The translations under genes and the position numbers were made by a program. DNA of 64,000 nucleotides from Fonticella tunisiensis (GTDB lineage: Bacteria > Bacillota > Clostridia > Clostridiales > Caloramatoraceae), in NCBI RefSeq assembly GCF_004364155.1, contig NZ_SOAZ01000002.1, positions 124,001-188,000 of the forward strand, read 5' to 3'. The notes under the pieces were generated by a model that had not been told where the DNA came from, did not search any database, and saw only the letters and a list, made by a program, of their open reading frames with translations. Shown one piece after another: positions 6,775 to 31,004 of this stretch. Each line of letters begins with the position of its first letter. Position 1 is the first letter of the stretch.

Positions 6775-6865
6775 GATAAAAAATATATTCCATTTAAAAG
6801 CATGCTTTACAAAGAAGTTCTAAGGCTTGAGATTTGAAAAATGTGAATTTCATATATTTTTTATC
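6775..6865. repeat. Dispersed TIR element, short copy (A)
   Basis: A 91-bp element bounded by perfect inverted ends GATAAAAAATATAT (6775-6788) and ATATATTTTTTATC (6852-6865). The left half, including AAAGAAGTTCTAAGGCT, and the right end GTGAATTTCATATATTTTTT match the longer copy at 30786-30970, so this looks like that element with its centre deleted. The left flank GACGCTGC is also shared. It fills most of the 338-bp gap 6632-6969, which holds no other gene. Confidence 0.8.
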
Positions 6866-6969
6866 GTAGAACCGATCAAAATGGTATGTCCACTGAGCAT
6901 ACGTTAAATGGCACAATTTTGTGATTAGCAGATATTATATATAGAGGAATAGTTAGAATAGGTGATGAT

Positions 6970-8355
6970 ATGAATTTTTATAATTATGATCAGGATTTGA
7001 GAAAACTTGTTGTTGGTGTGGATACAAAAATACCGCTGATTGATGGGAGTTTTGTAACTGCCATCAATTTCGACAACGCAGCAACTACACCCCCTTTTGT
7101 TTCAGTACTTGATAAGGTGTACAGATTTTGCCCATGGTATTCTTCAGTTCACAGAGGCACAGGATATAAATCCCAGATTTCATCTAACCTATTTGACGTC
7201 TCTAGAAAGATAATTTTAGATTTCGTAAACGGAGATCCAAATCACGATACTGTTATTTATGTAAAGAATACTACTGAGGCTATAAATAAGCTGGCATACA
7301 GGTTGTGCCGTGAAACAAAGGAATGCGTAGTATTATCTACGGATATGGAACATCATTCTAATGATCTTCCCTGGAGGAATAAGTATAAAATTGACTATGT
7401 AAATATAGATTCTAATGGAAGGCTATCATTAGAGGATATGGAGGAGAAGCTTCAAAAGTATATGGGAAAAGTGAGGCTCTTAACAATTGCAGGGGCCTCA
7501 AACGTTACGGGCCATATTAACCCTATCTATAGGGCAGCGGAGCTTGCCCATAAATATAACACAAAAATACTTGTAGATGGGGCGCAGCTTGTACCACATG
7601 CCAAGATGGATATGAGGCCGGTAGAATCACCCCAGCATATAGATTATCTGGTCTTTTCAGCCCATAAGATGTATGCACCCTTTGGAATAGGCGTCCTTAT
7701 AGGTCCCAGGGAAACCTTTGCTTATGGAGAGCCTGATTATTCAGGCGGCGGCACCGTAAAGATCGTAACACATGACTTTGTAGATTGGGATGCTCCTCCA
7801 GAAAAGGAGGAGGCAGGTACCCCAAATCTTATTGGCATAGTAGCACTTATAGAGGCTATTAAAACAATAAAGGACGTTGGAATGGAGAGAATAGAAGCCC
7901 ATGAGCGGAACCTGCTTAAGTATGCGGTGACAGGGCTTAAAGGTATTGGAGGTATTAGATTATATGGAGATTGTGAAGAAAATTTCAGTGAAAAGGTTGC
8001 TATCATACCCTTTAACGTAGAAGGACTTCATCATGAGACTGTTGCGAAGATACTTTCATATGAGGCAGGCATAGCAGTTAGAAATGGATGCTTCTGTGCA
8101 CAGCCCTATATTCAGAAGCTTTTAAAGGTTAATAAGGATGAAATAGGAGCGTATATGAGGGACAGAAGCATTCCAAAACCAGGTATGGTAAGGCTTAGTT
8201 TTGGGCTATACAATACTTTTGGGGAAATAGATAGGCTAATAAGGGCGCTTGACTATATTACAAGAAATAAAAAAGCATATGATGAAAAATATAAAAGGAT
8301 TAATGTAAGACTAAATGAAGATTTTCTCTATACGGTTTCATACAATATGGAATAA
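6970..8355 (+). CDS. Class V aminotransferase, cysteine-desulfurase-like
   Basis: 461 residues of fold-type I PLP enzyme. Motifs: NFDNAATTPP at the start, the STDMEHHSN and VDGAQLVPH segments typical of SufS/CsdA proteins, and FSAHKMYAPFGIG with the PLP lysine. A cysteine pair in RNGCFCAQPY sits where the sulfur-accepting cysteine of desulfurases lies. It is longer than SufS (about 410). It sits 80 nt upstream of a DsrE-like sulfur-carrier gene, suggesting a sulfur-transfer pair. No suf or isc scaffold genes are nearby, so it is not obviously the housekeeping desulfurase. The ATG has an AGGTGAT site. Confidence 0.8.
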   Translation: MNFYNYDQDLRKLVVGVDTKIPLIDGSFVTAINFDNAATTPPFVSVLDKVYRFCPWYSSVHRGTGYKSQISSNLFDVSRKIILDFVNGDPNHDTVIYVKNTTEAINKLAYRLCRETKECVVLSTDMEHHSNDLPWRNKYKIDYVNIDSNGRLSLEDMEEKLQKYMGKVRLLTIAGASNVTGHINPIYRAAELAHKYNTKILVDGAQLVPHAKMDMRPVESPQHIDYLVFSAHKMYAPFGIGVLIGPRETFAYGEPDYSGGGTVKIVTHDFVDWDAPPEKEEAGTPNLIGIVALIEAIKTIKDVGMERIEAHERNLLKYAVTGLKGIGGIRLYGDCEENFSEKVAIIPFNVEGLHHETVAKILSYEAGIAVRNGCFCAQPYIQKLLKVNKDEIGAYMRDRSIPKPGMVRLSFGLYNTFGEIDRLIRALDYITRNKKAYDEKYKRINVRLNEDFLYTVSYNME

Positions 8356-8435
8356 AGATTTGATTTAGAGTAAAAATAAGTTTATCAATAAATTATTTAA
8401 TGGTTGGAAACTTTAAATCCGGGGAGGTAAGCCTA

Positions 8436-8912
8436 TTGAGCAAGAAATTAAATATCCTTATGTTCAGCGGAGAATATGATAAGGCCCTGGCGGCACTTAT
8501 ATTAGCAAATACTGCCAGAGAGATGGAAGTAGAGGTTACAATGTTTTTTGCATTCTGGGGACTGCTTCTTTTAAGGGATCCTGGAAAGATGACCCTTGAG
8601 GACAAAACAACATTTGAAAAAATGTTTGGAATAGTAACACCAAAGGGGCCTGAAGAGCTTCCTCTATCAAGAATGAACATGGGGGGGCTTGGGGAGAGAA
8701 TGCTGCTTAAGATGATGCAGGATGATAAGGTACCTCCTTTAACTGCATTTTTAGACGGTGCGAGGAAAAAGGGTGTCAAATTCTACGGCTGTAAATTGTC
8801 CGTGGACGTGATGGGGTTTAAAAGGGAGGAATTCATTCCCGAGGTTGAGATAATAACGGCCGAGGAGTATTTAAAGGATGCCCTTGAATCGAATATGCAG
8901 CTTTTCATCTAA
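8436..8912 (+). CDS. DsrE/DsrF-like family protein
   Basis: About 158 residues of the DsrE/DrsH fold: KLNILMFSGEYDKALAALILAN at the start, a hydrophobic TMFFAFWGLLLL strand, a methionine-rich MNMGGLGERMLLKMMQ loop, and GVKFYGCKLSVDVMG with the conserved cysteine expected to carry persulfide. The TTG at 8436 is chosen because GGGGAGG lies 9 nt upstream; the ATG at 8400 has no ribosome site. The role as sulfur carrier for the upstream class V enzyme is inferred from adjacency. Confidence 0.8.
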   Translation: MSKKLNILMFSGEYDKALAALILANTAREMEVEVTMFFAFWGLLLLRDPGKMTLEDKTTFEKMFGIVTPKGPEELPLSRMNMGGLGERMLLKMMQDDKVPPLTAFLDGARKKGVKFYGCKLSVDVMGFKREEFIPEVEIITAEEYLKDALESNMQLFI

Positions 8913-8931
8913 AGTATGACAGTACAATAAA

Positions 8932-8957
8932 ACTCCCTACCAGCCAGGGTAGGGAGT
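8932..8957 (-). terminator. Terminator for hcp (also convergent boundary)
   Basis: ACTCCCTAC (8932-8940) pairs with GTAGGGAGT (8949-8957). On the minus strand it is followed by TTTTATT, giving a proper T-tail for hcp. It also lies 19 nt after the DsrE-like stop. Confidence 0.85.
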
Positions 8958-8970
8958 AAGCCAAATGGAA

Positions 8971-10638
8971 TTATTGTGCCATAAACATTTTTATATCGTC
9001 TTCAACGTTTGTAATTCCGCCGATTCCGAAGTTTTCAACAAGTACCTTGGCTACATTTGGTGACAGGAAGCCAGGCAGCGTTGGTCCAAGGTGAATGTTC
9101 TTGACTCCAAGGTAAAGCAATGCAAGTAATACTATTACAGCCTTTTGTTCATACCATGCTATGTTGTATGATATTGGTAGTTCGTTAACGCTGTCAAGGC
9201 CAAATGCTTCCTTGAGTTTTAAAGCTATTACAGCTAGTGAGTATGAGTCGTTGCACTGTCCTGCGTCAAGCACCCTTGGAATTCCATTGATGTCTCCAAG
9301 GTCAAGCTTGTTGTACTTATACTTGGCGCAGCCTGCTGTAAGGATTACCGCATCCTTTGGAAGCTTCTTAGCGAATTCTGTGTAGTATTCTCTGCTCTTC
9401 ATTCTTCCATCGCATCCAGCCATTACGAAGAATCTCTTAATTGCTCCGCTCTTAACAGCTTCTATAACTTTATCAGCAATTCCTAAAACCGTTGCATGTG
9501 CAAATCCACCAACTATTTCTCCTCTTTCTATTTCTGTTGGAGCAGGAAGTGTCTTTGCAAGCTCGATTATCTCTGAGAAGTCCTTTGTTCCATCGGCATT
9601 CGCCTCGATATGCTTTACACCATCAATACCTGTGGAACCTGTTGTAAACATTCTGTTCTTGTAGGAAGCCTTTGGAGGTACTATACAGTTTGTAGTCATT
9701 AGGATTGGTCCATTGAAGCTTTCGAATTCCTTATCCTGCAGCCACCATGCATTTCCATAGTTTCCTACAAAGTGTTCATATTTCTTGAATGCTGGATAGT
9801 AGTGAGCCGGGAGCATTTCTCCGTGGGTGTAAACGTCTACTCCAGTTCCCTTTGTTTGTTCAAGCAACTGCTCTAAATCCCTAAGATCGTGACCACTTAC
9901 AAGTATTGCAGGGTTATTTCTAACTCCTATATTAACCTTAGTTATTTCAGGATTTCCATATGTTGATGTATTAGCTTTATCAAGCAGTGCCATTACATCT
10001 ACGCCATACTTACCTGCTTCAAGGTTTAATGCAACTAACTGATCAGCAGTTAAAGCATCGTTTGTTATATCTTCAAGAGCTTTCTGCATAAATGCATTTA
10101 TGGAATCATCGTCATATCCAAGGTTGTTTGCATGTTCAAGGTAAGCAGCCATACCCTTTAATCCATAAGTCAATAGTTCTCTTAAAGATCTTATATCTTC
10201 ATTTGCTGTTGCAAGAACCCCAACTTCAGGAGCTTCAGACTTAGCTTTAAGCTCTTCGTCTGTTTCACCATACCATGTTACAAAATCGCTTGTATTTTCT
10301 ATGGATCCACCAGCTTTAACAACAGCTTCCTTGATTTCTTCCCTTAGCTTTAGTCCTGCTCTAATCTTGTCATAGAATCTGGCTGGGTCCCAATTAGCAT
10401 TTGTAATTGTCATAAACAGTGCATCAACTATAAATTTATCTGTTTCTTTTTTGTTAATACCAAGGGCTCTTGCTCTGTTATTAACAATGGCAATTCCCTT
10501 TACTACATATATTAACAGGTCCTGTATGTTTGAAAGATCACTTGTCTTACCACAAACACCTCTTATTGTACATCCAGTTCCCTTTGCAGTTTCCTGGCAC
10601 TGATAGCAGAACATGCTTACGCTGCTCCTGTTATCCAT
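8971..10638 (-). CDS. hcp: Hydroxylamine reductase / hybrid-cluster protein
   Basis: About 555 residues. The N-terminal [20 protein letters not shown] gives C-x2-C-x8-C-x5-C, the cubane [4Fe-4S] ligands of class I-type Hcp. Later hybrid-cluster ligands are visible in [40 protein letters not shown] and LDAGQCND. Hcp reduces hydroxylamine or NO and is part of nitrosative-stress defence. The ATG at 10638 follows GGAGG by 8 nt; the ATG at 10653 lacks a site. It is monocistronic here, without the ferredoxin-like hcr or frdX partner, and has a Crp/Fnr-like site upstream. Confidence 0.96.
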
Positions 10639-10748
10639 ACTTCTTACCTCCATCTCTTTATTTTTTATAATTAATTTTGACTAAATAAATGAAAATCCTA
10701 ATGGCAAATTGTTTACTTTTTAATGTATCTCATGCTGTCCATGTTTAT

Positions 10749-10791
10749 ATAATAAAACATCATTTCTCTTTTGAATGTGATATTTATCATA
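10749..10791 (-). promoter_or_regulatory. Crp/Fnr-like activator site and -10 box of hcp
   Basis: TGTGATATTTATCATA at 10776-10791 (plus-strand reading) is a near-palindrome of Crp/Fnr type. On the minus strand TATTAT at 10754-10749 would be the -10 box; the site centre (10783.5) is then about 41.5 bp upstream of the start near 10742. It shares its first ten bases with the site before the DUF1858 operon. An HcpR-like or other Crp-family regulator is the natural candidate. The rest of 10639-10937 is AT-rich with nothing recognised. Confidence 0.55.
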
Positions 10792-10937
10792 TTCTAATGA
10801 TGATATTTATTAATTTTATAAACAAAGTAACTTTATTCATTGTATTAGTTTTGGACTTAAAAGATGCTAGAATAAAAATATGTTTTATTTACAAAAATAT
10901 AAAGAGCAGGTGATGAGCCTGCCCTGTTTTAACCTGT

Positions 10938-11864
10938 TTATCCAAGCATTAGCTGCCTGTCTTCAACTTCCCTTAAATTATCAAATACATGCCTTAAAAG
11001 CTCCATATATGTTTTTGCTGTAACCTCATCCCTGTCTATGTGAGGGTTGAGTTCAACGAGGTCCATAGAAACAACCATTCCCGATGAAGCCAGCGTACCA
11101 AGTATATATTTTGCTTCATCTACTGTAAAGCCGTCCTTAACAGGCGTTCCTGTACCTGGTACAAGGGATGAATCCAGCGAATCGATGTCAAAGCTTACGT
11201 GTATTCCATCTACCTTATCCCTCAAATAAGAGAGAGTCTCATTAATAACGTTTTCAACGCCGCATTTTTTTACCTTATCCATGGTAAAGGCTTTAATGTT
11301 TGAGTTTTTAATAAGCTCAATTTCCCCTTCGTCAAGGTCCCTTGCACCTATAATGAATACATTTTCATCCTTTACCTTTATCCTGTGTTCGAAAAGATTT
11401 ACAAGCTTGTCAGGTCCAAATCCCATTGATGCAGCAAGGGGCATGCCGTGTATATTTCCGGATGGAGTTGTTTCGTGGGTGTTTATATCTCCGTGAGCAT
11501 CTATCCATATAACTCCCAGATTTTTAACATGTTTACTTACCCCTGCAATACTTCCCATTCCAAGGCTGTGATCTCCTCCAAGTACAAGGGGGAAATTTCC
11601 GCTTGAAATAGATTCATAAACCTTAAAGGCAAGCTTAGTATTGGCGTCCACAACTATGTCCAAATACTTCAGCTTTCCGTCATATTTATATTTATGGTCC
11701 TCGCCAACAACAGGAACCTCTATGTTGCCGAGATCCTTTACATCAAAGCCCATATTTTTGATTTCCTCTTCGATGTGCATTTCCCTGAACTTATCAGGGC
11801 CCGAGCTTGTTCCATGCTTTTGGGCTCCGTAACCAATGGGCATACCTATTATGTTTATTGCCAT
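10938..11864 (-). CDS. rocF: Arginase
   Basis: 308 residues of the ureohydrolase fold with the manganese-binding motifs GGDHSLGMGS, WIDAHGDINTHETTPSGNIHG and SFDIDSLDSS, plus MDLVELNP near the end. The SGNIHGMPLA segment and the overall length favour arginase (arginine to ornithine and urea) over agmatinase. The ATG follows GGGGGA. No urease or rocD/rocE neighbours are seen. Confidence 0.9.
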   Translation of the reverse strand: MAINIIGMPIGYGAQKHGTSSGPDKFREMHIEEEIKNMGFDVKDLGNIEVPVVGEDHKYKYDGKLKYLDIVVDANTKLAFKVYESISSGNFPLVLGGDHSLGMGSIAGVSKHVKNLGVIWIDAHGDINTHETTPSGNIHGMPLAASMGFGPDKLVNLFEHRIKVKDENVFIIGARDLDEGEIELIKNSNIKAFTMDKVKKCGVENVINETLSYLRDKVDGIHVSFDIDSLDSSLVPGTGTPVKDGFTVDEAKYILGTLASSGMVVSMDLVELNPHIDRDEVTAKTYMELLRHVFDNLREVEDRQLMLG

Positions 11865-12447
11865 TTTTAATTCCCCCTTAACAGAAATTTAATTAAGATA
11901 TATAATATAATTTTGGTGAATTTTTACTCTGAGCTTTATGCGCTGTTTACTTTCATTTCTGTAAGTGGGGTGAATCACTGCCCTTTACTCCAGTAAATTA
12001 AAGTTGCTTTACTATATATAAGCGCCATCAAGCCCAGTGAATAGCAAAATATCGTTTAGGTTAAATTATATTACCTAAAAGATATTTGCGCAAACAAAAA
12101 TATCTAAATTTTATATGATTTAAACTATGAAACGAATTAATTTTATAAAAGATATAGTAAAATGTCTATAATAAAAAAATACAAATATATGGTAAATGAA
12201 TTATTTTTATGTGATACATTCATTTATTTATTAATAAATATAATATAGATTAGATTTAGAATGTAGTAAAAAAAGAAAATAAAGTGTATGATATGAAATT
12301 GACAGAAAAATGAATTTAAATATAAATAATAATTTAAAATTTGCAATAAAATGTATATTACATAAAATAAATATACCTAAAAAAGTTTAAAAGCTGCCTT
12401 TATACAGGTCTAATAAATTGATATCATTGTATTGTGAGGTGATGCAG
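11865..12447. other. AT-rich intergenic region with one long hairpin
   Basis: This 583-bp divergent gap (arginase leftward, cardiolipin synthase rightward) has no convincing ORF. AAATATCGTTTAGGT at 12047-12061 pairs with ACCTAAAAGATATTT at 12073-12087 (one mismatch). It has no T-tail, so a regulator site or transcript structure is as likely as a terminator. The remainder is very AT-rich and holds the promoters of both genes, which I could not place with confidence. Confidence 0.4.
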
Positions 12448-13884
12448 TTGAAGTATGGCTTTACCTTCATATTATCATGGTTTTTTATTATCAATATCAT
12501 CATATCAACCGTAACAATAATACTTGAAAGAAAAAGGCCTGAAAAAACAATAGCGTGGCTTTTGATATTTATATTTTTGCCTCCACTGGGATTGATACTT
12601 TATATTTTTCTGGGCCGAAACTGGAAAAGAAATAAGCTCAATGAGGAGTTTTCTCCATATGTTAAGGATCTTATTCAGCGTGTAATAAAAAGGATAAACG
12701 ATCCTGATTATGTTCATCTTATAGAACTCATTGCAAATACAAGCAATTCCCCTCTTTTTGTGGATAACGAAATAACAATATTTAAGGACGGGACTGAAAA
12801 GTTTAAGGCACTTAAGGAGGAACTTGAAAAGGCTAAACATCATATTCATCTTGAGTATTACATAGTAAAAAGTGATGGTATAGGAAATGAAATAAAGGAT
12901 ATATTGATAAGAAAGGCAAAGGAAGGCGTTAAGATAAGGTTTATAATGGATAGGATGGGGGCAATAAGAACCAGTAGAAGGTACATAAAAGAGCTAAGGG
13001 ATGCAGGGGTTGACGTTGCAATATATTCATATTTTCTTGCACCGTTTCTAAGGTTTATAAACACCCAGATAAATTACCGAAACCATAGAAAGATAGCTGT
13101 AATAGACGGAAGGGTTGGATTTATTGGGGGAAATAATATTGGCGATGAGTATCTTGGGAAGGGAAAACTTGGATACTGGAGGGACACCCATATAATGGTT
13201 AAGGGGGACTTTGTCCTTGGACTTCAGGGAGTATTTATAGACGATTTCTGGGCTATTAAGAAGGTTAACGAAGGGCGTATTAGCCATGAAAAGGAGTTTG
13301 ACAAATATTTTCCAAAACCGGAGAAATCGGGAAAGAAGATTATGCAGTTAATAACAAGCGGCCCCGATTATGAAGTTCCTGCCATTATGCACAGCATTCT
13401 GAAGATGATAACCATTGCAAAGGATCATATATACATTGCAACACCATATTTCGTTCCGTCGGAGAGTATTATGGATGCCCTTAAGGTTGCAGCTTTAGGA
13501 GGCATCGATATAAGAATACTTTTTCCAGGAAGGTATGATCACTTTACAGTTTACTATGCTTCGAGAACGTACCTTGCGGAACTTTTAAAATACGGCGTAA
13601 AGGTTTATCTTTACAGGGAGGACGCTTTTGTTCATTCAAAGGTTATGACTGTCGATGGTAAGATATCCACTGTAGGAACTGCAAATATGGACATTAGAAG
13701 CTTTGAACTCAATTATGAAATAAACTCTGTAATATACGATGAAGAGGTTACAAAAAAGCTTGAGGATATGTTTTTGGAGGATATCAAGGAGAGCAGGCTT
13801 ATGACCCTTGAGGATTATGAAAATTCACCAAAGCATATCAAAGTTATTGAAGCGGTATCGAGAATTTTTTCATCTCTTCTGTAG
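12448..13884 (+). CDS. cls: Cardiolipin synthase
   Basis: About 478 residues. Two N-terminal membrane helices (FTFILSWFFIINIIISTVTI and WLLIFIFLPPLGLILYIFL) are followed by two phospholipase-D-type HKD motifs: NHRKIAVIDGRVGFIGGNN and VHSKVMTVDGKISTVGTAN. The enzyme condenses two phosphatidylglycerols to cardiolipin and glycerol at the membrane. The TTG at 12448 lies 8 nt after GAGG and is preferred; the ATG at 12442 is too close to the ribosome site. It is a single gene. Confidence 0.93.
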   Translation: MKYGFTFILSWFFIINIIISTVTIILERKRPEKTIAWLLIFIFLPPLGLILYIFLGRNWKRNKLNEEFSPYVKDLIQRVIKRINDPDYVHLIELIANTSNSPLFVDNEITIFKDGTEKFKALKEELEKAKHHIHLEYYIVKSDGIGNEIKDILIRKAKEGVKIRFIMDRMGAIRTSRRYIKELRDAGVDVAIYSYFLAPFLRFINTQINYRNHRKIAVIDGRVGFIGGNNIGDEYLGKGKLGYWRDTHIMVKGDFVLGLQGVFIDDFWAIKKVNEGRISHEKEFDKYFPKPEKSGKKIMQLITSGPDYEVPAIMHSILKMITIAKDHIYIATPYFVPSESIMDALKVAALGGIDIRILFPGRYDHFTVYYASRTYLAELLKYGVKVYLYREDAFVHSKVMTVDGKISTVGTANMDIRSFELNYEINSVIYDEEVTKKLEDMFLEDIKESRLMTLEDYENSPKHIKVIEAVSRIFSSLL

Positions 13885-13970
13885 AGTGGATTATACTTTG
13901 CAGATATTGATTTTTTTTGTTATACTTATACCAATAATTCTCAATGCAACTTTAACTGAGAGGTGTTAGG

Positions 13971-14624
13971 ATGAGCAGGGTAGGCAAAAAAATTCAAGAG
14001 GCAAGAATGAAATCAGGTATATCTGTAAAACAGCTGGCTAAAAAACTTGGCGTTTCAGAAGGTTATATTCAGGATGTTGAGTCAGGAAGAAAGATAATAA
14101 ACGAAGATTTGATTAAAAAAGTCGAAAAAATATTAAATATTGATATAAATGAAGATGTATTTGAAGGTGCTGATGTTCCGGTTGAAAACATAAAGGAAGT
14201 TAATGCCAGTGCTGCTATAAATGCTGAGTGGGAGAATGCCTTTTCACATATACTAAAAAAGATCCCCGTGTTTGATATAAATCAAAAGGAGATTTACGAT
14301 TATAAATATCTTCCTATAACGGACAAAAAAATAGAGGGATATAGTGCTGATAAAATATTTTATATAAAGGCACCCGATGACAGCATGAGGGGGTTTAGGA
14401 TTCAGAAGGACGACAGGCTTATGATTTACCAGAACCCTGAAATAATCAATAACAGCATAGCTCTTATTGAAGTTGATGGAAAAAGGTTAATACGACAGCT
14501 TAAAAGGCTCGACAGCAACAAGGTGCTTATTTTATCACATTCAAATAATCTAAAAACTGAAACAAGGGATGTAAAGTCATTTAGCGTTCTTGGAAGATGT
14601 ATTAAACTTGAAATAGATATGTAA
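13971..14624 (+). CDS. XRE regulator with LexA/S24-like C-terminal domain
   Basis: 217 residues. Residues 5-60 form an XRE helix-turn-helix (ISVKQLAKKLGVSEGYIQDV). Residues 110-215 resemble the S24 fold of LexA and phage repressors, with the serine segment APDDSMRGFRIQKDDRLMI. The expected catalytic lysine region reads DGKRLIRQLKRL, where arginine seems to replace lysine in the TVKRL-like position. It may be a non-cleaving effector domain. The ATG follows GAGGTG. It is a single gene ended by a strong terminator; its target is unknown. Confidence 0.75.
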   Translation: MSRVGKKIQEARMKSGISVKQLAKKLGVSEGYIQDVESGRKIINEDLIKKVEKILNIDINEDVFEGADVPVENIKEVNASAAINAEWENAFSHILKKIPVFDINQKEIYDYKYLPITDKKIEGYSADKIFYIKAPDDSMRGFRIQKDDRLMIYQNPEIINNSIALIEVDGKRLIRQLKRLDSNKVLILSHSNNLKTETRDVKSFSVLGRCIKLEIDM

Positions 14625-14627
14625 TAT

Positions 14628-18267: not shown

Positions 18268-18316
18268 AAAAGTCAGCTTGAATTTTTGTGTAAGCCTATC
18301 TTTTAAAGAATGCTGA

Positions 18317-18473
18317 GATAAAAAATATATGAAGCAAACTATTTTAGCGAGTAACAAGAGGTTTTTGACGAGTGGGCAGCTGGGAAGGCGAGCGAGTTTC
18401 ACGAACCCACTTGGCTTCTCAGCTGCCCTGAGCTTTAGAACCTCTTGTATAAGCGTGTAACATATTTTTTATC
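18317..18473. repeat. Dispersed TIR element, medium copy (B)
   Basis: A 157-bp element with ends GATAAAAAATATAT (18317-18330) and ATATTTTTTATC (18462-18473). Inside, ACAAGAGGTT (18354-18363) pairs with AACCTCTTGT (18439-18448), and GGGCAGCTG (18374-18382) pairs with CAGCTGCCC (18420-18428), so the whole unit can fold as nested hairpins. The TTAGAACCTCTTG segment is a diverged match to copy C. It fills the gap 18268-18504 between two convergent genes. Confidence 0.75.
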
Positions 18474-18504
18474 ACAGAGTTTTATATATCCTTTACACAG
18501 TCTT

Positions 18505-20554: not shown

Positions 20555-20581
20555 TTAACTTGTTGTGCTAGATGAATTTAC
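20555..20581. repeat. Solo outer end of the dispersed repeat
   Basis: TTAACTTGTTGTGCTAG (20555-20571), then a 10-nt extension ending AATTTAC, is identical except for one base to the outer left flank of copy C at 30746-30772. No matching right end was found here. It sits 5 bp from the stop codon of the Nif3-like pseudogene. Confidence 0.7.
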
Positions 20582-23347: not shown

Positions 23348-23390
23348 AAAAGTCAGAGATGTGTGTTAGTTATCACATTCCTGACTTTTT
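23347..23390. terminator. Terminator between the lipoprotein gene and rsgI
   Basis: AAAAAGTCAG-A-GATGTG pairs with CACATTC-CTGACTTTTT, with flanking T-tracts in both directions. Confidence 0.88.
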
Positions 23391-23397
23391 ATTGCTG

Positions 23398-24180
23398 CTA
23401 CTTTTTATTATGCTGCTTACTGTTATTTTCCTTATCCTTCTTTGATTCAGAATCCTTTTCTTTACTTTTATTACCATTATCCTTTTTCGCATCATAGGTT
23501 TGGGTTTCATCGCTATTATAATTCGTCTCCCTTAAAGCTTTTTTGTTGACCGAATTTTCATTAGATGAAGAATTGTTGTTTGAGTTCTTTTCTGACTTAT
23601 CTTCGTTTTTGTGATTTATGTTGCTTTTTTCATTGTTTTCATGTTTTTGTTCATCTTCTTTAAATTGCTTAATATTGTTATCTTTATTTTTATTATTTAT
23701 TGCCTTTTCAAGCCTATCCCTTATATTATTAATGTCAACATCCGAGTCCTTAAGCTGAGTAGAGGATATTACTGGTTTAGAATTGCTGCTTAAGGCTCCT
23801 TCCTCTATTCCAGCATCCTCAATTTTTTGAGCCGCTTCGTCAAGTGTAAGCCCTTTAAATTTTTCAGCGTTTTTGAGGCCTTCGATCCTTTGAATCGTTC
23901 CCTTTCTATTTATATAAAGTCTGATATTTTTATCACCGTTTATATCTACAAAGCCTACAATTTGGTTGGCGTAGGCTGTAATGCCGGTATAGGTTGATAT
24001 AATTATAAGCATTATTGAAGCTGCTGCAGCATAGTAGTATGGGAATTTACCGCAGGGCCTTCCCTTATAAACATCGCCTATATTTACATTACCTTTTTTT
24101 CTAAGTTTTAAAAATTCACCGCTGCTTGTTAATACAACTACATATTTATTATGGACTTCTAAGACCATTCCCTCTTTCAT
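23398..24180 (-). CDS. rsgI: RsgI-type anti-sigma factor
   Basis: 260 residues. Residues 1-45 are the RsgI N-terminal domain that binds SigI (GMVLEVHNKYVVVLTSSGEF). A single membrane helix follows (residues 48-68, AAAASIMLIIISTYTGI), then an extracellular domain to about residue 140 (VDINGDKNIRLYINRKG). The last 110 residues are a Lys/Asn/Ser/Glu low-complexity tail with no carbohydrate-binding module of the kind seen in cellulolytic Clostridia. The ATG has GAGGTGAT 4 nt upstream, and the gene begins 12 nt after sigI. It should hold SigI at the membrane until an envelope signal arrives. Confidence 0.88.
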   Translation of the reverse strand: MKEGMVLEVHNKYVVVLTSSGEFLKLRKKGNVNIGDVYKGRPCGKFPYYYAAAASIMLIIISTYTGITAYANQIVGFVDINGDKNIRLYINRKGTIQRIEGLKNAEKFKGLTLDEAAQKIEDAGIEEGALSSNSKPVISSTQLKDSDVDINNIRDRLEKAINNKNKDNNIKQFKEDEQKHENNEKSNINHKNEDKSEKNSNNNSSSNENSVNKKALRETNYNSDETQTYDAKKDNGNKSKEKDSESKKDKENNSKQHNKK

Positions 24181-24192
24181 AGCATCACCTCG

Positions 24193-24840
24193 TTAAACTA
24201 TAAATTCCCTAAGGGAATCCAGCCGTTTATCACTGAATATTATAATAAGAGCAATTATATATTTTCTCCAGTCTTCAAGGGTCTTTCTGGATATTTCACT
24301 TATAAGCAGTATCTCTTTAATGGGAAGGATTTTTTTAATTTTTATTACAGTAATAATTTCATCTATGGTTGCAAGGTGTTTAGCCAGCTCAATAAGCTTT
24401 TCACGGGTATCCCTGTGCTTTGGGGATTTTCTTGTTAAATCTTCAAGGGTAATGTTGAAATCTTCCATTATCTCTTTAAAAAGATTTATCTGGGAAACCC
24501 TATCAAGCTTTTCATCTATGGAATGGGTGTAAGATGTATAGTTTTGAATGCTTTCATCCTCAATAGGAATTTCATTTCTGGAGTTTTTCCTGAAGTAATC
24601 AATAAGTCTGTTTTTCATTATTATCTTACTATATGTTTCAAAGTTCCCTTCTTTAAATGTATCTATTGCATCATTAAAAGCCATTAAGGCTATGCTGAGT
24701 TCATCATCATTTTCCCAGGATAGATATCTTTTACATATTAGCGATGCATATTGATGGATATAAGGCTTGTTTGATTCTATAAAGTAGTTTCTGGCATCCA
24801 TATCGCCCTTCTGAGCTAAATTGAGTAGCCGTAAATCCAT
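24193..24840 (-). CDS. sigI: RNA polymerase sigma factor SigI
   Basis: About 215 residues with the SigI layout: a shortened region 2 (ENDDELSIALMAFNDAIDTF and NFETYSKIIMKNRLIDYFRK) and a SigI-type C-terminal region (EISRKTLEDWRKYIIALIIIFSDKRLD). In Bacilli and Clostridia this factor answers heat or envelope/polysaccharide signals through RsgI. The ATG at 24840 follows AGGTGAT by 3-4 nt; the upstream ATG at 24855 has no site. It is the first gene of the sigI-rsgI operon and seems to be autoregulated (see the promoter at 24867-24895). Confidence 0.92.
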   Translation of the reverse strand: MDLRLLNLAQKGDMDARNYFIESNKPYIHQYASLICKRYLSWENDDELSIALMAFNDAIDTFKEGNFETYSKIIMKNRLIDYFRKNSRNEIPIEDESIQNYTSYTHSIDEKLDRVSQINLFKEIMEDFNITLEDLTRKSPKHRDTREKLIELAKHLATIDEIITVIKIKKILPIKEILLISEISRKTLEDWRKYIIALIIIFSDKRLDSLREFIV

Positions 24841-24866
24841 GTAATCACCTGCCATTCACTATAAAT

Positions 24867-24895
24867 ATACGAAATCTATAAAAATTTTAGAGGGG
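24867..24895 (-). promoter_or_regulatory. SigI-type promoter of sigI-rsgI
   Basis: On the minus strand CCCCTC (24895-24890), a 17-bp spacer and TCGTAT (24872-24867) resemble SigI promoters, which have a C-rich -35 and a CGWA -10. The predicted start is about 20 nt before the sigI ATG. Confidence 0.5.
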
Positions 24896-24905
24896 AATAA
24901 TATTA

Positions 24906-24934
24906 CCCACCGAAATACATTTTTTTATACGAAC
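24906..24934 (+). promoter_or_regulatory. SigI-type promoter facing the DUF5667 gene
   Basis: CCCACC (24906-24911), a 17-bp spacer and ACGAAC (24929-24934) mirror the sigI promoter in spacing and composition. It points to the DUF5667 gene, with an untranslated leader of about 100 nt. Confidence 0.42.
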
Positions 24935-25044
24935 TATTTAATGTCAACGTTGATGAATCCTTAAGGTGCATTGACTTAAAAATATCCAGAAATCAAGCAA
25001 AATAAAAGTTACTCTAATTATACTTTACATAGGGAGGTTTATGT

Positions 25045-26226
25045 ATGAAAAAAATATTGTCAACGCTGGTTATTACTTCAATTTTATTTGGAAGTGTAAA
25101 TCTTCCAGCCTTTGCAGCAGAAGAGGATAACAATGCGGGAATTACACCGGACAGCATATTATATCCAATCGACAGGGCAGTGGAGAAGGTACAGCTTGCT
25201 TTAACATCTGATCCTGCTGAAAAAATAGAACTTTTAACCAATAATGCCGATGAAAGAATTGACGAAGCACAGGTTATGGCAGAGGAGCAGAAGGAGGATT
25301 TATCCTTAAAGGTCATTGAAGACAGTCAGGCTGCTCAAGAAAAGGCTGAAGAAATAGTAAATGAAAATGATGAGAAAGTTTTAGAGGCGGATCAGGAGAA
25401 GAATGAAGAGGTAAAGAACGTTCAGAAGAACCTTGATGAATATGTGAAAAATAGTATTGAAAGGCTAAAGGAAATACTTGAAAAGGTTCCAGAAGGGGCT
25501 AAACCAGCCATTGAAAAGGCCATTGCCATTCAAACATTAAAGCTTGATGAAAAGTCAAGGATTGCAGAGGCTTCAAAAAATATTGAGGAAGCAAAAAAGA
25601 GAGCTGAGGAGACTAAAAAACAGATAGAAGAGCAGAAAAAGTCCATAGAGGAACTTCAAAAAGCACTTGAGGAGGCCAATAAAGCCCTTGAGGAAGCAAA
25701 AAAGTCAGGGGATACCGCAAAAATGGATGAGCTTACAGGTAAGATTTTAGAACTTCAAGCAAAGCTTGATATGGCAAATGCAAAGCTTAATGAGCTTAAC
25801 GGTACCCTTGCAGAAGTTGAAAAGAATATGGAAGGCCTTCAAATATCTTTGAAAACAATAAAAGAGGAAGCAAAGTCCAAGAGAGAAGAAATAATGGCTG
25901 CATTTAAGAAGGCAAAGGAAGGCGCGAAGGCAGAAAAAAATAGTAAGAAGTCAGAGGATGGGAAAAAAGAGGACGTAAATGAAGAGAAAGAGCAGAAGAA
26001 TACAGAGGCTGTGAACAATGTTCAGCAAAAGGAATTTGGAAGCTTAAATGTGATTCAAAATAGTGAGGTAAAGAATCACGCCCAGCAGATAAAGAAAGAA
26101 GTAAAGGAAAAGGTAGAGGATAGTAAGGAAGAGATTAAAAGAAAAATAGAACAGAAAAAAGAGGAAATGAAAAATGAAAAGGAGCAAGAAAAAGATAATA
26201 AAGCGCAGGGAAAAAACAAAAATTAA
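25045..26226 (+). CDS. Secreted DUF5667 coiled-coil protein
   Basis: 393 residues. A signal peptide (MKKILSTLVITSILFGSVN, then LPAFAA) leads to a DUF5667 domain (ITPDSILYPIDRAVEKVQLA and LTSDPAEKIELL) at residues 30-130. Residues 150-290 are a long heptad-type coiled coil, and the C-terminal 90 residues are Lys/Glu low complexity. It is probably exported and wall- or surface-associated. The ATG follows GGGAGG. Its position divergent from sigI, with a SigI-like promoter, suggests it is an envelope-stress target. Confidence 0.8.
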   Translation: MKKILSTLVITSILFGSVNLPAFAAEEDNNAGITPDSILYPIDRAVEKVQLALTSDPAEKIELLTNNADERIDEAQVMAEEQKEDLSLKVIEDSQAAQEKAEEIVNENDEKVLEADQEKNEEVKNVQKNLDEYVKNSIERLKEILEKVPEGAKPAIEKAIAIQTLKLDEKSRIAEASKNIEEAKKRAEETKKQIEEQKKSIEELQKALEEANKALEEAKKSGDTAKMDELTGKILELQAKLDMANAKLNELNGTLAEVEKNMEGLQISLKTIKEEAKSKREEIMAAFKKAKEGAKAEKNSKKSEDGKKEDVNEEKEQKNTEAVNNVQQKEFGSLNVIQNSEVKNHAQQIKKEVKEKVEDSKEEIKRKIEQKKEEMKNEKEQEKDNKAQGKNKN

Positions 26227-26245
26227 AATAAAAGATTAATTTGTC

Positions 26246-26267
26246 AAAGGAGTCTTAGGGCTCCTTT
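26246..26267 (+). terminator. Terminator after the DUF5667 gene
   Basis: AAAGGAG (26246-26252) pairs with CTCCTTT (26261-26267), followed by ATTTTATTT. Confidence 0.82.
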
Positions 26268-26361
26268 ATTTTATTTATTAATTGGTTGTAAAGAAGCCTG
26301 CAATTTTATATAATTAATAAAAAGAATATTTAGAAAAGTGAATCTGGGGAGTGTTGATTAG

Positions 26362-26541
26362 GTGGTTGGGGGGAATGAAAGCAAGGTAATAAGCTTAAAA
26401 GAGTTTAAGAACAGAAGAAGACTTAAAAAGATTATGGATTTATGGTCAAAGGTTTCTTCGATTTTCAGAATCAAAAGCAAGAAGATAAAGAAAAATAAAC
26501 AACAGGGCAGGAAGAACACAAACAATAAAAAGCATATGTGA
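26362..26541 (+). CDS. Small basic protein of 59 residues
   Basis: A GTG-started ORF preceded by GGGGAG at 10 nt. The product begins MVGGNESKVISLKEFKNRRR and is extremely lysine/arginine rich, with a central hydrophobic patch (MDLWSKVSSIF). It lies alone in the 463-bp gap between the DUF5667 and ABC ATPase genes, with a CCGGTA-TACCGG hairpin 16 nt after its stop. It has no recognisable family; it could bind nucleic acid or the wall, or be a spurious ORF. Confidence 0.45.
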   Translation: MVGGNESKVISLKEFKNRRRLKKIMDLWSKVSSIFRIKSKKIKKNKQQGRKNTNNKKHM

Positions 26542-26556
26542 TGATTTTAAAATACC

Positions 26557-26574
26557 CCGGTAATTTTATACCGG
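26557..26574 (+). terminator. Possible weak terminator hairpin
   Basis: CCGGTA and TACCGG flank a 6-nt loop, followed by CTAAATTTTG. The T-tail is poor. Confidence 0.35.
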
Positions 26575-26689
26575 CTAAATTTTGTGAAAATTGTACAATG
26601 CATTCATATATCTTTGCCATGTTGAGAAGATTAAAATAATGTTAGAATGAAAATAGTCCAAGTATTATGTAGGGATGGGGAGGTTTAAT

Positions 26690-27799
26690 ATGGCAAAGGT
26701 AATTTTAAAAAACATTTATAAAGTATACCCCGGAAACGTTGCTGCCGTGAAGGATGTTAACCTTAATATTGAGGACAAGGAATTTGTAGTTTTAGTTGGG
26801 CCTTCAGGGTGCGGAAAGTCAACTACTCTTAGAATGATTGCAGGTCTTGAGGAAATAACGTCAGGAGAGCTCTATATTGGAGATAGGCTCTGTAATGATG
26901 TTGCTCCAAAGGACAGGGATATAGCTATGGTTTTCCAGAACTATGCCCTGTATCCACATATGACAGTTTATGAAAACATGGCCTTTGGACTTAAACTTAG
27001 AAAGACACCAAAAAATGAAATTGACAGAAAGGTTAGGGAAGCAGCTAAAATACTTGATATAGAACATCTTTTAGATAGGAAGCCAAAGGCTCTGTCAGGC
27101 GGGCAGAGGCAGAGAGTTGCCCTTGGTAGGGCCATAGTCAGGGAGCCAAAGGTGTTTTTGATGGATGAACCTTTGTCAAACCTTGATGCAAAGCTCAGGG
27201 TTCAGATGAGAACTGAGATACTTAAGCTTCACAGGAGGCTCAATACAACTTTTATATATGTAACACATGACCAGACTGAAGCTATGACAATGGGTACAAG
27301 AATAGTTGTTATGAAGGATGGGGTTGTACAGCAGGTGGATACTCCCAAGAATATTTATGAAAACCCTGCCAATGTGTTTGTTGCAGGCTTCATTGGAAGT
27401 CCACAGATGAACTTTATAAGCAGCATAATCACAAAAGAAGGGAATAGACTATATGTAAAAATTGGAGGACAGAAGCTTCCGGTTCCCATAGATAAAGCTA
27501 AGGTTCTTGAGGAAAAGGGATATGTAAATAAGGAGGTTATCTTTGGAATAAGGCCTGAAAACATGGATGACAATTCCGACTTCCTAAATAAATATAGCGA
27601 AAGCACAATAAATGCAAAGGTTGAGGTTATGGAAAATATGGGGTCGGAAACATACCTTTACCTGCTATTTGAAGGAAACAGTATAATAGCTCGGGTTGAG
27701 CCAACAAGCAATGCAAAGATCGACCATACAGTAAAGCTTGCGGTTGATATGAATAGAATGCATATATTTGACAAGGATACTGAAGAAGCAGTAATATAA
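26690..27799 (+). CDS. Sugar ABC transporter ATP-binding protein (UgpC/MsmX type)
   Basis: About 369 residues. Walker [17 protein letters not shown], signature [17 protein letters not shown], Walker [16 protein letters not shown] and a switch histidine in [12 protein letters not shown] are all intact. Residues 240-369 are the regulatory TOBE/OB domain (FGIRPENM) typical of MalK/UgpC/MsmX. Such ATPases can energise several sugar permeases encoded elsewhere; no permease or binding protein is adjacent here. The ATG at 26690 follows GGGGAGG by 6 nt. It is first in an operon with PucR-like and LacI-type regulators. Confidence 0.92.
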
Positions 27800-27810
27800 G
27801 GGGGATTAAT

Positions 27811-28740
27811 ATGACATTCTGCGATACGCTGCAAAATGCACTGGGCTGCAGTATAGGGATTTACAATCTTGAGGGAAGGCTCATTGAGGGTGAGGATATT
27901 GGTTTCAAAGTTACTGAAAACGTTATCTATAATGATGTAAATACCTATATTAGGACAGGAAATTACATTATAAGTGCCAGAGCCAACCTTTCGCAGGATG
28001 CATGTAGTATAATAAGGGTAATGTGGAGTGCATCGTTAGAAAAAGAGGCTGCAGATTATATGCAGCCTCTTGAGCATATTTTAAAGAGCAATGTATCATA
28101 CGAAAGCGTTAGGGGCAGATATTTGGATAATACTGTATTATATATATATGCTAACAGGAATATATTGGGCATGCTGAAGAGCATATATGAAGGATATAAC
28201 GCTCATATAGTGTATGATGGAGAAGGATATTATCTTGTAAATCGGGCTGAAGATATTGAACAGGAGGCTCAGTCCATATTAAGCGATATAAGACAGGAAT
28301 GCGGTGTGAATGTTATAATAGGGTGTGGGAGAAGGGTTAGCGACAGCTATACAATAAAACAATCTGCTGACCATGCTAAAAAGGCCTTCTATTTAGCACG
28401 GAGCCTCGGGTTTAAAGAAGGTTTTTACCATATAGATAAAATGATTTTGTATGGTATTATTGATGAAGTTTCCGCTGATGATATAGATTTTTATGTTAAG
28501 GGTGGGTACGAAGGTTTTAATGAAGTTATGAGAGATAAGGAACTTATAGATACTGCTGAAGAGCTTTTAAGGTGTCATTTAAATATAAGTGAAGCAGCAA
28601 GAAGGCTCTATCTTCATAGGAATACACTTTTATACAGAGTTGAAAAGATAAAAAACCTTACAGGGCTTGATATAAAAAAGTTTGAGGAAGCTGTTATATT
28701 TAGAACGATTATGTCAATTTATAAACTTAAATGGAGATAA
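27811..28740 (+). CDS. PucR/CdaR-like helix-turn-helix regulator
   Basis: 309 residues. The C-terminal 60 residues are the PucR-type HTH (LNISEAARRLYLHRNTLLYRVEKIKNLTG; here read only as its core NISEAARRLYLHRNTLLYR). The middle has the GGDEF-derived phrase NVIIGCGRRVSD and the AFYLARSLG segment found in CdaR proteins. The first 100 residues are a putative ligand-sensing region. It starts 11 nt after the ABC ATPase and is followed by the LacI-type gene, so it probably controls or senses carbohydrate or organic-acid use. The ligand is unknown. Confidence 0.82.
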   Translation: MTFCDTLQNALGCSIGIYNLEGRLIEGEDIGFKVTENVIYNDVNTYIRTGNYIISARANLSQDACSIIRVMWSASLEKEAADYMQPLEHILKSNVSYESVRGRYLDNTVLYIYANRNILGMLKSIYEGYNAHIVYDGEGYYLVNRAEDIEQEAQSILSDIRQECGVNVIIGCGRRVSDSYTIKQSADHAKKAFYLARSLGFKEGFYHIDKMILYGIIDEVSADDIDFYVKGGYEGFNEVMRDKELIDTAEELLRCHLNISEAARRLYLHRNTLLYRVEKIKNLTGLDIKKFEEAVIFRTIMSIYKLKWR

Positions 28741-28751
28741 AGGGTGATTAT

Positions 28752-29777
28752 ATGGTTACTATTAAAGAAGTTGCAGAAAGGGCTGGAGTTTCGCCTTCTA
28801 CGGTTTCGAGGGTAATATCAGACAGTCCAAGAATAAGCGATGAAACCAAACAGAAGGTAAGAAGGGCAATGGAGGAGCTTGGATACCATCCAAACGCAAT
28901 CGCAAGAAGTCTAGTAAATAGAGCTACTAATACCATTGGAATCGTTATGCCGCGTTCGGCAGAGGATGTATTCTTGAACCCCTTTTTCCCTGAGGCACTT
29001 AGAGGGATTGCTAAATGTACACATGATGAAGGCTTTTGTGTGCTTTTGACAACAGGCAATTCCGATGATGAGCAGATAGAGTCCCTTCTTTCCGTTGTGA
29101 GAGGAGGAAGGGTTGATGGGGTAATTCTTATGTACTCAAAGCTTGATGACCCCATACTTGAAATGCTTACAGAAATGAACATACCTTTTTCAATGATTGG
29201 AAGGCCAACGATTAGCGAAGATATAAATTTCGTAGACAATGATAACGTGAATGCTGCTTATGAGGCTGCAAATTACCTTATAAGTATGGGGCATAGAAGG
29301 ATTGGGCTTATAAATGGTTCTTTAAACCTTGTGGTTTCCATTGATAGATATGAGGGTTACAAAAGGGCACTTGCTAAAAATAAAATTGAACTGGATGAAA
29401 GCATTATCATGTCAAGCGAATTTGTCCAGGAGGGCGGATATGAGAGCATGAAAAAAATGCTCAGCGTGGAAAACCCTCCATCGGCGGTGCTTGTTACAGA
29501 CGATTTAATAGCCTTCGGTGCCATAAGAGCAGCAAGGGATATGAAGGTAAAGATTCCAGATGAAATGTCAATAATCAGCTTTAACAATATTCCCCTTGCA
29601 GATTTTGCAACACCTCCTTTAACATCCGTTGATATAAATGCATACAGTCTGGGATATAAGGCTGCGAAGCTGGTTATCGATGATATTAAGGGTAAAAAAC
29701 ATAAACCGTCATGTTATATAGTTGAAACCAGGATAGTTTTCAGGGATTCAGTAATTTCTAAAAATAACATCAGTTAG
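28752..29777 (+). CDS. LacI/GalR-family repressor
   Basis: About 341 residues. It starts with the LacI HTH (MVTIKEVAERAGVSPSTVSR and hinge segment YHPNAIARSLVN), followed by a periplasmic-binding-like effector domain (IGIVMPRSAEDVF, DGVILMYSK, FVDNDNVNAAYEAANYL, ILVTDDLIAFGA-type region, SIISFNNIPLADFATPPLTS). The ATG at 28752 has AGGGTGAT; the upstream in-frame ATG overlaps the previous gene. A palindromic candidate operator lies just after the gene at 29820. CcpA-like proteins are related, but identity as CcpA is not supported by context. Confidence 0.9.
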   Translation: MVTIKEVAERAGVSPSTVSRVISDSPRISDETKQKVRRAMEELGYHPNAIARSLVNRATNTIGIVMPRSAEDVFLNPFFPEALRGIAKCTHDEGFCVLLTTGNSDDEQIESLLSVVRGGRVDGVILMYSKLDDPILEMLTEMNIPFSMIGRPTISEDINFVDNDNVNAAYEAANYLISMGHRRIGLINGSLNLVVSIDRYEGYKRALAKNKIELDESIIMSSEFVQEGGYESMKKMLSVENPPSAVLVTDDLIAFGAIRAARDMKVKIPDEMSIISFNNIPLADFATPPLTSVDINAYSLGYKAAKLVIDDIKGKKHKPSCYIVETRIVFRDSVISKNNIS

Positions 29778-29819
29778 ATTGGCAGATAATTGTGTATATT
29801 AAAAATGGTTTTGTTAAAA

Positions 29820-29833
29820 TACAAACGTTTGCA
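29820..29833. promoter_or_regulatory. LacI-type (cre-like) operator
   Basis: TACAAACGTTTGCA contains the perfect palindrome CAAACGTTTG. Read on the minus strand it matches the catabolite-response consensus TGNAANCGNTNNCA with one mismatch. It lies between the LacI-type gene and comB. Confidence 0.4.
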
Positions 29834-29881
29834 AAAGATCTTCTCCATTCATCATTCCGATAAGGGTACTGCTTCCGTCAA

Positions 29882-29935
29882 CCTTAGAACTTTTCTGGGC
29901 AAGCGAAGCAATGAATGAAATATATTTTTTCAGCG
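29882..29935 (-). repeat. Dispersed TIR element, degenerate partial copy (D)
   Basis: CCTTAGAACTT at 29882 and ATGAATGAAATATATTTTTT followed by CAGCG match, in inverted orientation, the left end of copy C (GCTGCG, then AAAAAATATATTTCATTCA, then AAGTTCTAAGG). The other half is missing or unrecognisable. It sits in the 257-bp gap between the LacI-type gene and comB. Confidence 0.6.
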
Positions 29936-30034
29936 TATTTTAAAGACAAAAACCTGCAAAGTAATTTAGTTTAAGGATAAAAATAATTATGCATTTTGAA
30001 AAATGCAGGATGCAAAATAAAATGGGGTGATATT

Positions 30035-30736
30035 ATGAACATAAGCCTGATTCCATCTGTGGAACATATAAAAGAAGAAGAGCTTAAGGATAAAGTAGTT
30101 ATAGTAATTGATGTTTTAAGGGCTACATCAGTTATAGTAACAGCGCTGGCAAATGGTGCAAAGGAGGTTATTCCTGTACTTGAAATTGAGGATGCATTAG
30201 AGCTTAAAAGTGATATGGAACTTCTAGGAGGTGAAAGAAAGGGGCTTAAGATAGATGGATTTGACCTTTCAAACTCTCCACTTGAATATACAAGGGAAAT
30301 GGTTGAAGGCAGAAGTATAATAATGACTACAACCAATGGCACAAGGGCTCTACATAAGGCAAAAGAAGGGGATAAAATTTACATAGGAGCTGTTATAAAC
30401 GGGGTGTCGGCGGCGAAAAAGGCCTCAGATGAGAAAAAGGATATGGCTATTATATGCGCTGGAACCTATGGGAAGTTTTCACTTGATGACTTTCTGTGCG
30501 CCGGGAAAATTATATATGAAGTTCTTAAAAGAGGAGAATATGAGCTTGATGATTTCGCAGCAGCAGCATATATGGCATACAGGGACAACAAGCATGATCT
30601 AATATCATATGTCAAAATGGCAAAGCACTGCAAGTATCTTATATCCATAGGCCTTGAAGAGGATATAAAGTACTGCTTTACGGAAGATATAGCAGACGTT
30701 GTTCCGGAATACAGGGACGGTGTTATAAAATTATAA
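30035..30736 (+). CDS. comB: 2-phosphosulfolactate phosphatase (ComB family)
   Basis: About 233 residues matching ComB: VIVIDVLRATSVIVTALANG, LLGGERKGLKIDGFDLSNSP, MTTTNGTRAL, VINGVSAAKKA and ICAGTYGKFSLDDFLCAG. ComB is a Mg-dependent phosphatase of methanogen coenzyme M synthesis; the many clostridial homologues act in sulfolactate metabolism or on an unknown phosphate. The ATG at 30035 follows GGGGTGAT. No comA or comC is present here. The stop codon lies inside a 10-bp sequence repeated at 31006-31015, beyond repeat copy C. Confidence 0.88.
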   Translation: MNISLIPSVEHIKEEELKDKVVIVIDVLRATSVIVTALANGAKEVIPVLEIEDALELKSDMELLGGERKGLKIDGFDLSNSPLEYTREMVEGRSIIMTTTNGTRALHKAKEGDKIYIGAVINGVSAAKKASDEKKDMAIICAGTYGKFSLDDFLCAGKIIYEVLKRGEYELDDFAAAAYMAYRDNKHDLISYVKMAKHCKYLISIGLEEDIKYCFTEDIADVVPEYRDGVIKL

Positions 30737-30745
30737 GAAGATTAT

Positions 30746-31004
30746 TTAACTTGTTGTGCTAGATAAATTTACAGATCGGCGCTGCGATAAAAAATATATT
30801 TCATTCACCAGCACGCTTAGCAAAGAAGTTCTAAGGCTCGGGACTTGAAAAATCAAGAACTTTCGTTAAACTCCCCTTGCTTAAGTCACGAAAGTTCTAG
30901 GATTTTTCTGCGTCCCTTCGCCTAGAACTTCTAATTGCCCGCTTTATGTGAATTTCATATATTTTTTATCTCCGCTCAGTCTCAAAACTAGCACAACAAG
31001 TTAA
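30746..31004. repeat. Dispersed TIR element, full copy (C) with outer inverted repeats
   Basis: The outer perfect 17-bp inverted repeats are TTAACTTGTTGTGCTAG (30746-30762) and its complement (30988-31004). The inner ends are GATAAAAAATATAT (30786-30799) and ATATATTTTTTATC (30957-30970). Nested inside, AGAAGTTCT-A-AGGC (30824-30837) pairs with GCCTAGAACTTCT (30920-30932), and AGAACTTTCGT (30856-30866) pairs with ACGAAAGTTCT (30888-30898). There is no ORF. It fills the 330-bp gap between comB and the convergent methyltransferase gene. Confidence 0.85.

Follow-up and report, generated by a model that had tools for sequence, protein, structure and literature searches.

Three folded repeats were analysed in a stretch of 64,000 nucleotides from Fonticella tunisiensis (contig NZ_SOAZ01000002.1, positions 124,001 to 188,000; this whole stretch is hereafter called the window). 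These repeats are IS982-type miniature inverted-repeat transposable elements (MITEs), and members of an already known kind, because the IS982 elements of the same genome share their ends and their 7-bp target duplications. The novel part is their core, which is common to genera and lies there under different ends. We consider it likely, with a probability of roughly 0.78, that the repeats are non-autonomous IS982-type MITEs whose fold-constrained core is mobilised by transposases that differ between lineages. An original prediction, made from the sequence alone, had described the three repeats and had proposed miniature mobile elements, structured RNAs or terminators as explanations. Its observation was confirmed in part and its interpretation supported in part. 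Mobility is backed by terminal inverted repeats (TIRs), 7-bp target duplications and a matching insertion sequence (IS) of the IS982 family in the same genome, and the structured nature by folding z-scores and covariation.

Copy 3 is a full MITE of 253 bp (positions 30749-31001, plus strand), delimited by sequence, folding and flanks, with the TIRs ACTTGTTGTGCTAG ... CTAGCACAACAAGT. Its target duplications, TTATTTA on the left (30742-30748) and TAATTTA on the right (31002-31008), agree at six of seven positions. Between the boxes GATAAAAAATATAT and ATATATTTTTTATC lies the core (30786-30970, plus strand), and within it the ~105-nt nested hairpin module common to the order (30826-30930, plus strand), delimited by R1, a model built from 20 inner modules of this genome only, the one of copy 3 among them. 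Copy 1 (6709-6904, plus strand) is an older element with the variant left arm CTCTGAAGAGCCCATTGGAATAAAA, a 91-bp form of the core (6775-6865, plus strand) without most of the inner hairpin, and the flanks TATATTA and TAAATGG, which show no clear duplication. Copy 2 (about 18283-18501, minus strand, with the orientation taken from its inner module) is a decayed element whose ends TGTGTAAG/CTTTACACA are still complementary; its core lies at 18317-18473 (minus strand), and no recognisable target duplication was seen beside it. In addition, a solo left end, ACTTGTTGTGCTAGATGAATTTA, was recognised by sequence at 20558-20580 (plus strand), with TAAATTA before it. Neither a core nor a right end stands beside it, and it resembles a truncated copy.

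The places of the three repeats and their shared boxes were as predicted, with one mismatch in the right box of copy 2, but GATAAAAAATATAT and ATATATTTTTTATC are inner boxes and not the ends. The true element is bounded by the inverted repeats A[CT]YCGTTGTGCTAG, which lie 30-70 bp farther out. Left of the box copies 1 and 3 are alike, and the own-genome BLAST of copy 3 extends to TIRs 30-odd bp outward. The boxes were ruled out as element ends because the similarity between the flanks of different copies continues past them. Conserved internal arms had also been claimed for all three copies, yet AAGTTCTAAGG occurs together with CCTAGAACTT in copy 3 only. Copy 1 reaches an R1 E-value of 0.15, and the inner module of copy 2 (18359-18443), which was outside the R1 training set, is diverged and on the opposite strand (R1 E=0.0011).

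That each copy can fold proved correct, as all three beat dinucleotide shuffles, with z-scores of -13.3 for copy 3, -5.3 for copy 2 and -2.8 for copy 1 (1 of 200 shuffles folded equally well as copy 1). With short flanks, copy 3 is predicted to form a single imperfect hairpin from end to end (-99.6 kcal/mol). The copies encode no protein, in line with the earlier description: the longest closed open reading frame (ORF) overlapping copy 3, with ATG, GTG or TTG starts, has 36 aa, and the ORF listing for copies 1 and 2 covers frames of at least 120 aa.

The evidence for transposition comes from the ends and flanks of the whole family. The TIR CGTTGTGCTAG, with at most one mismatch, had 128 matches in the genome and the reversed control 10. 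Among the 47 complete elements in the examined stretches, defined by both TIRs within two mismatches, the 7-bp flanks are identical in 22 (permuted mean 4.7, maximum 11) and agree at six or more of the seven positions in 40 (permuted mean 19.8, maximum 28; right flanks permuted 2000 times). When the same register is extended to 8 bp, only one of the 47 still matches. The target consensus is TAAWTTA; TAATTTA and TAAATTA are the most frequent targets, with six each of the 22.

Isolated TIRs pointed to four contigs (C39, C36, C1 and C15) that carry copies or ends of an IS. The copy on C39 carries an open ORF of 321 aa, which belongs to the IS982 family (NF033520, E=2.2e-75, 253.4 bits versus a cut-off of 130) and also matches Pfam DDE_Tnp_1_3 (E=1.4e-22). 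The left end of this IS is ACTCGTTGTGCTA, from which its right end differs at two places, and the MITE ends A[CT]YCGTTGTGCTAG match it. As read by eye, the IS duplications are TAACCTT on C39 and TAAATTA on C36, 7 bp long as for the MITEs. The copies on C36 and C1 are broken. Compared by eye, MITE and IS agree only at the ends and at a few inner bases. Judging from sequence, the MITEs are probably moved by the IS982 transposase that this genome encodes. Other transposase genes were noticed near IS982 copies, one of the IS110 family (L065, 2644-3483) and one IS3-like, just under the curated cut-off (L068, 1213-1881).

The family is not restricted to the window. There, GATAAAAAATATAT at up to two mismatches has 14 matches (shuffles: mean 4.77, maximum 11). 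Genome-wide, the exact box pair at 60-90 bp spacing occurs at 20 places (reversed control 0), the L-arm pattern GCTGCGATAAAAAATATAT with up to three mismatches has 253 matches (reversed control 1), and the R-arm pattern 99 (reversed control 1). The arm matches cluster into at least 134 genome places, about one per 23 kb, as obtained from 199 positions (the first 100 L-arm matches and the 99 R-arm matches). An independent count over the examined genome stretches, in which two-core places enter twice, gave 134 distinct elements; this is a different set from the 134 clusters, three of which (C21:10055, C21:16760 and C24:8710) were left out of the element stretches. The notion that only the three window copies exist is thus refuted by the at least 134 places. 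The similarity beyond the ends is also significant, with at least 40 places (query included) that show no less than 87% identity when aligned to the query of 271 bases. All copy numbers are lower bounds, as BLAST scored the best 40 candidates per genome in the own genome and the family and the best three in the order, and R1 the best 17 per genome in the order and the best 10 in the class. A blastn search with copy 3 gave no match in 72,556 plasmid and 50,697 phage records.

Complete elements span 100-345 bp, and 34 of the 47 fall into two size classes, 158-162 or 252-254 bp. The elements are modular: between similar outer arms stands one of several inner hairpins, or no hairpin at all, and the arms, too, are found in several combinations within the genome. 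For the inner modules, 101 candidates were found, five of which were removed as misplaced or truncated. In the flanks of two loci (L083 and L004) outer arms are joined directly without a core, as in CTAGATAAATTTACAG..CCCCTGAACTAG; many copies are bordered by a second repeat (CTAGCTCTGCATGAAACAAAATTCACCAC..). At four further loci (L125, L121, L077 and L029), pairs of cores lie a few hundred bases apart, suggesting composite two-core elements.

The gene context was assessed for 127 copies, with 38 in tandem, eight in divergent and seven in convergent gaps, and 74 unclear. The position of two of the three window copies between convergent genes was described correctly, but it does not represent the family, and no excess in convergent gaps was seen among the classifiable copies (7/53 convergent, 38/53 tandem). 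The strand of the 38 copies in tandem gaps is even, 19 versus 19, and this speaks against a role in the neighbouring genes that depends on the strand. The absence of copies from the 31 kb of prophage was likewise seen as predicted, but it is unsurprising because the density of the family is only about one place per 23 kb.

The inner module has the layout AAGTTCTAAGGC...AAGAACTTTCG-loop-CGAAAGTTCTAGG...GCCAAGAACTT, with the tip AAACTCGCTTCGCTCAAAC. Across the order it is conserved in fold, in the CTAA/AG internal-loop motif and in the tip AAACTCG..CGCTCAAAC. Letters kept in at least 80% of 84 aligned matches, some of which are second-strand matches of the same sites, cluster at the unpaired tip AAACTCG and, by the internal loops, at CTAA and AG, both partly paired in the model. 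Covariation was analysed in 22 sequences that belong to one sub-type (A4) and were aligned with MAFFT without regard to structure. They come from the own genome, G005, G224, G223 and CALCDS01, an uncultured Clostridiaceae metagenome-assembled genome (MAG); G223 is probably this same MAG, as the two agree in contig numbers and positions. Paired cells amounted to 92.0% versus 82.1% after shuffling, and changes on both sides of a pair to 75 cells versus 23.6, values that none of 500 shuffles reached. Pairs with double changes numbered 11 of 33 versus 8.4 (1 of 500 shuffles reached this), and slid versions of the structure were paired at 27-56%.

The core is found far beyond F. tunisiensis. Of the 225 genomes searched in the order, R1 matches 46 (own included), from 20 of 56 genera and three families (f1, f2 and f3), and many of the positive genomes carry multiple core copies. 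The best match outside the own genome reaches an E-value of 3e-19. In the class-level search (E<=1e-5) 6 of 391 genomes matched, three of them outside the order. BLAST of the element recovered parts of it in three of the 17 genomes of the family and in seven of the 225 of the order, with the own genome counted in both. In G006 a core hairpin lies in the 23S-5S rRNA spacer (C1:1525629-1525733, L212), and two more matches of equal score in this genome are possibly situated in further rRNA operons.

A scan for an exact DNA pattern in genome contigs, which may exclude own-genome records, gave 26 stretches, all in CALCDS01. There the module lies between GGCTMTGTT ends (GGCTMTGTTTAACA-like), and the 8-bp flanks are identical in 3 of 10 copies and agree at seven or more of eight positions in 6 of 10 (permuted mean 0.59, maximum 4). 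Further end types were recognised by eye in G016, G005, G224 and G081. Since CALCDS01 and these four genomes show other ends, the compared sequences suggest that the ends mostly differ outside the own genome while the module persists. The core elements of G016 (L055, L061, L062 and L064) also contain another hairpin repeat, with the sequence GGGAACGGTCAAGACCGTTCC or one similar to it.

At E<=1e-10, IS982 was detected in one of the 17 family genomes, F. tunisiensis itself, and six of the 16 others have R1 core matches. Among 20 chosen genomes four match IS982: the own genome, G130, G128 and G146. The IS982 of G130 is a remnant with stops, and one core element of this genome bears GTTGTACTAG/CTAGCACAGC ends. 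G128, of the same genus as G130, has an 84-residue fragment, and the match in G146 has 29% identity and ends unmatched to this IS.

Several points weigh against an IS982-type MITE with a fold-constrained core moved by different transposases. The C39 copy is the sole fully open one among three IS982 copies with coding sequence, and for this reason current IS982 activity is uncertain. In the own-genome stretches, from a genus with one genome, there was no sign of transposition, of strain polymorphism or of an empty site; when the joined flanks of the 47 complete elements were compared with these stretches, 12 of 12 junction-spanning rows were the query's own locus. In the covariation analysis, further standard pair types were no more frequent than after shuffling (22 versus 23.0; 444 of 500 shuffles as high). 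The tested structure is that of RNAalifold, extended by hand, and comes from the same alignment, so it is favoured over its slid versions. Relatedness can also produce covariation, and so can correction at DNA level between the arms of a palindrome. In an alignment of 50 modules with divergent sub-types, RNAalifold gave seven pairs, three with double changes; the 22 sequences of one sub-type were used because the 50 modules are too divergent between sub-types for RNAalifold. The 8-bp duplications come from 10 of 21 flanked copies (120 bp), the other 11 being without recognisable ends. No IS matching the GGCTMTGTT ends was seen in 154 kb of CALCDS01, where frames within end pairs 600-3000 bp apart were judged by eye, with no profile search. 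Outside the own genome and CALCDS01, the ends were read by eye, from few copies per lineage and in a minority of the 46 genomes.

Of the other explanations, the one that survives best is a structured RNA, a regulatory or processing signal carried by the MITE and active when transcribed from neighbouring genes. Covariation together with the conserved tip speaks for it, as does the G006 copy in the rRNA spacer. The even orientation in tandem gaps speaks against it, and so does the lack of an Rfam match. A scan of the window with Rfam 15 found only two tRNAs and no model for the module, copy 3 had two matches to miRNA models, both sub-threshold (E 0.088 and 0.74), and six loci of other genomes had no match. 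Promoter-like matches are weak and consensus-only; copy 3 has three, versus a mean of 0.8 after shuffling, and copy 2 has none. Overall, a structured RNA seems possible, though rather unlikely.

The family could also be an ordinary IS982 MITE, with arbitrary filler as interior and look-alikes elsewhere that are unrelated palindromes. The ~159-bp forms without most of the inner hairpin retain TIRs and duplications, as such filler would allow, and IS982-derived MITEs of ~240 bp are known, at least from the available part of the report on MITECca01 (PMC9769881). However, R1 gives matches over 105 positions, with E-values of 1e-19 to 1e-10, in three families and with the same tip and CTAA/AG, and outside the order only three genomes match among the 391 of the class search. 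We therefore regard arbitrary filler as improbable. Slightly fainter is the prospect that the folded single strand serves as substrate of a hairpin-recognising recombinase or transposase (attC, IS200/IS605-like), with the DDE ends being secondary. The long imperfect palindrome with conserved mismatched internal loops would suit such an enzyme, and so would the different combinations of inner hairpins and outer arms within the genome, but the 7-bp and 8-bp duplications at the outer ends are those of DDE transposition. Bidirectional terminators amplified in gene gaps, despite the two window copies between convergent genes and T6 tracts at the core ends, are barely credible and were ruled out as a family by scans of copies 2 and 3, which gave 0 in these two, by the gene context with its seven convergent among 53 classifiable copies, and by a T tract that lies outside the module common to the order.

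For the IS982-type MITEs with a fold-constrained core, the following history can be proposed. The IS982-family DDE transposase would bind the A[CT]YCGTTGTGCTAG ends of the MITEs in trans, and insertion at AT-rich TAAWTTA sites would leave 7-bp duplications. The interior would be a layered hairpin and not an IS leftover. The core may repeatedly have gained, or been inserted between, new terminal repeats, and may have been spread by whichever transposase a lineage had. As a guess, selection on the fold could act on a single-stranded RNA or DNA form, keeping the element tolerated or transposition-competent. A bolder version, which we put forward tentatively and at somewhat less than even odds, is that the ~105-nt hairpin might be a portable selfish or functional module that switches terminal repeats between unrelated transposition systems. 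This would include selection on the single-stranded fold and tip, and a spread through the order, even into the rRNA operon spacer.

MITEs are usually defined by their ends, and the interior is regarded as filler. Here it is the interior that genera have in common; what varies is the ends and, in one lineage, also the length of the duplication. If true, this would offer a concrete system for studying how a non-autonomous element can outlive its transposase and obtain a new one. A further outcome is a repeat family that is structured, covaries and has no Rfam model, present in about one fifth (46/225) of the order genomes searched.

Besides the repeats, the window contains two tRNA genes (32868-33070) which adjoin an ORF on the minus strand (33182-34354) that, by eye, resembles an integrase. 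They lie at the prophage edge, which is likely an attachment region.

Literature searches, which also covered rRNA intervening sequences, listed no paper describing this family, with thin coverage of subscription journals, so that absence is unproven; among the matches listed for sequence strings, none was by title a bacterial-repeat paper. Several known repeats share some of its characteristics. BOX is modular and folding, and RUP probably depends on an IS in trans. REPs depend on RAYT transposases and are not known to have target duplications, and Tn3-derived miniature elements (TIMEs) are short, TIR-bounded and moved in trans, with mosaic forms. To our knowledge, there is no report of one fold under different ends across genera for BOX or RUP, nor of a conserved internal fold in TIMEs.

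The comparisons below follow the available parts of the cited papers. REP/REPIN are dispersed, hairpin-forming mobile DNA like the elements described here, with REPs of 20-40 bp (PMC3116915, PMC3733652), but our elements are mostly 158-162 or 252-254 bp long and have 7-bp duplications. Membership was rejected on size and duplications, and no search for a RAYT gene was made. TIMEs (PMC4133298) differ in their ends and transposase family. BOX and RUP of Streptococcus pneumoniae (PMC3049150) are short dispersed repeats, as here. The stem-loop repeats Clop-1 of C. perfringens (93 bp) and Clot-1 of C. tetani (74 bp; PMC2267715) could be relatives, as compared by description and not by sequence. A close parallel in the mobile part is MITECca01 of a Cardinium endosymbiont, from ISCca4 of the IS982 family, which was judged likely derived from its parental IS (PMC9769881). 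It resembles our elements in its ~240 bp, the lack of a transposase gene, its many copies, and ends that nearly match an IS982-family IS of its own genome. In contrast, the F. tunisiensis elements, compared by eye, share little with the IS past the ends, and their nested hairpin lies under other ends in other genera.

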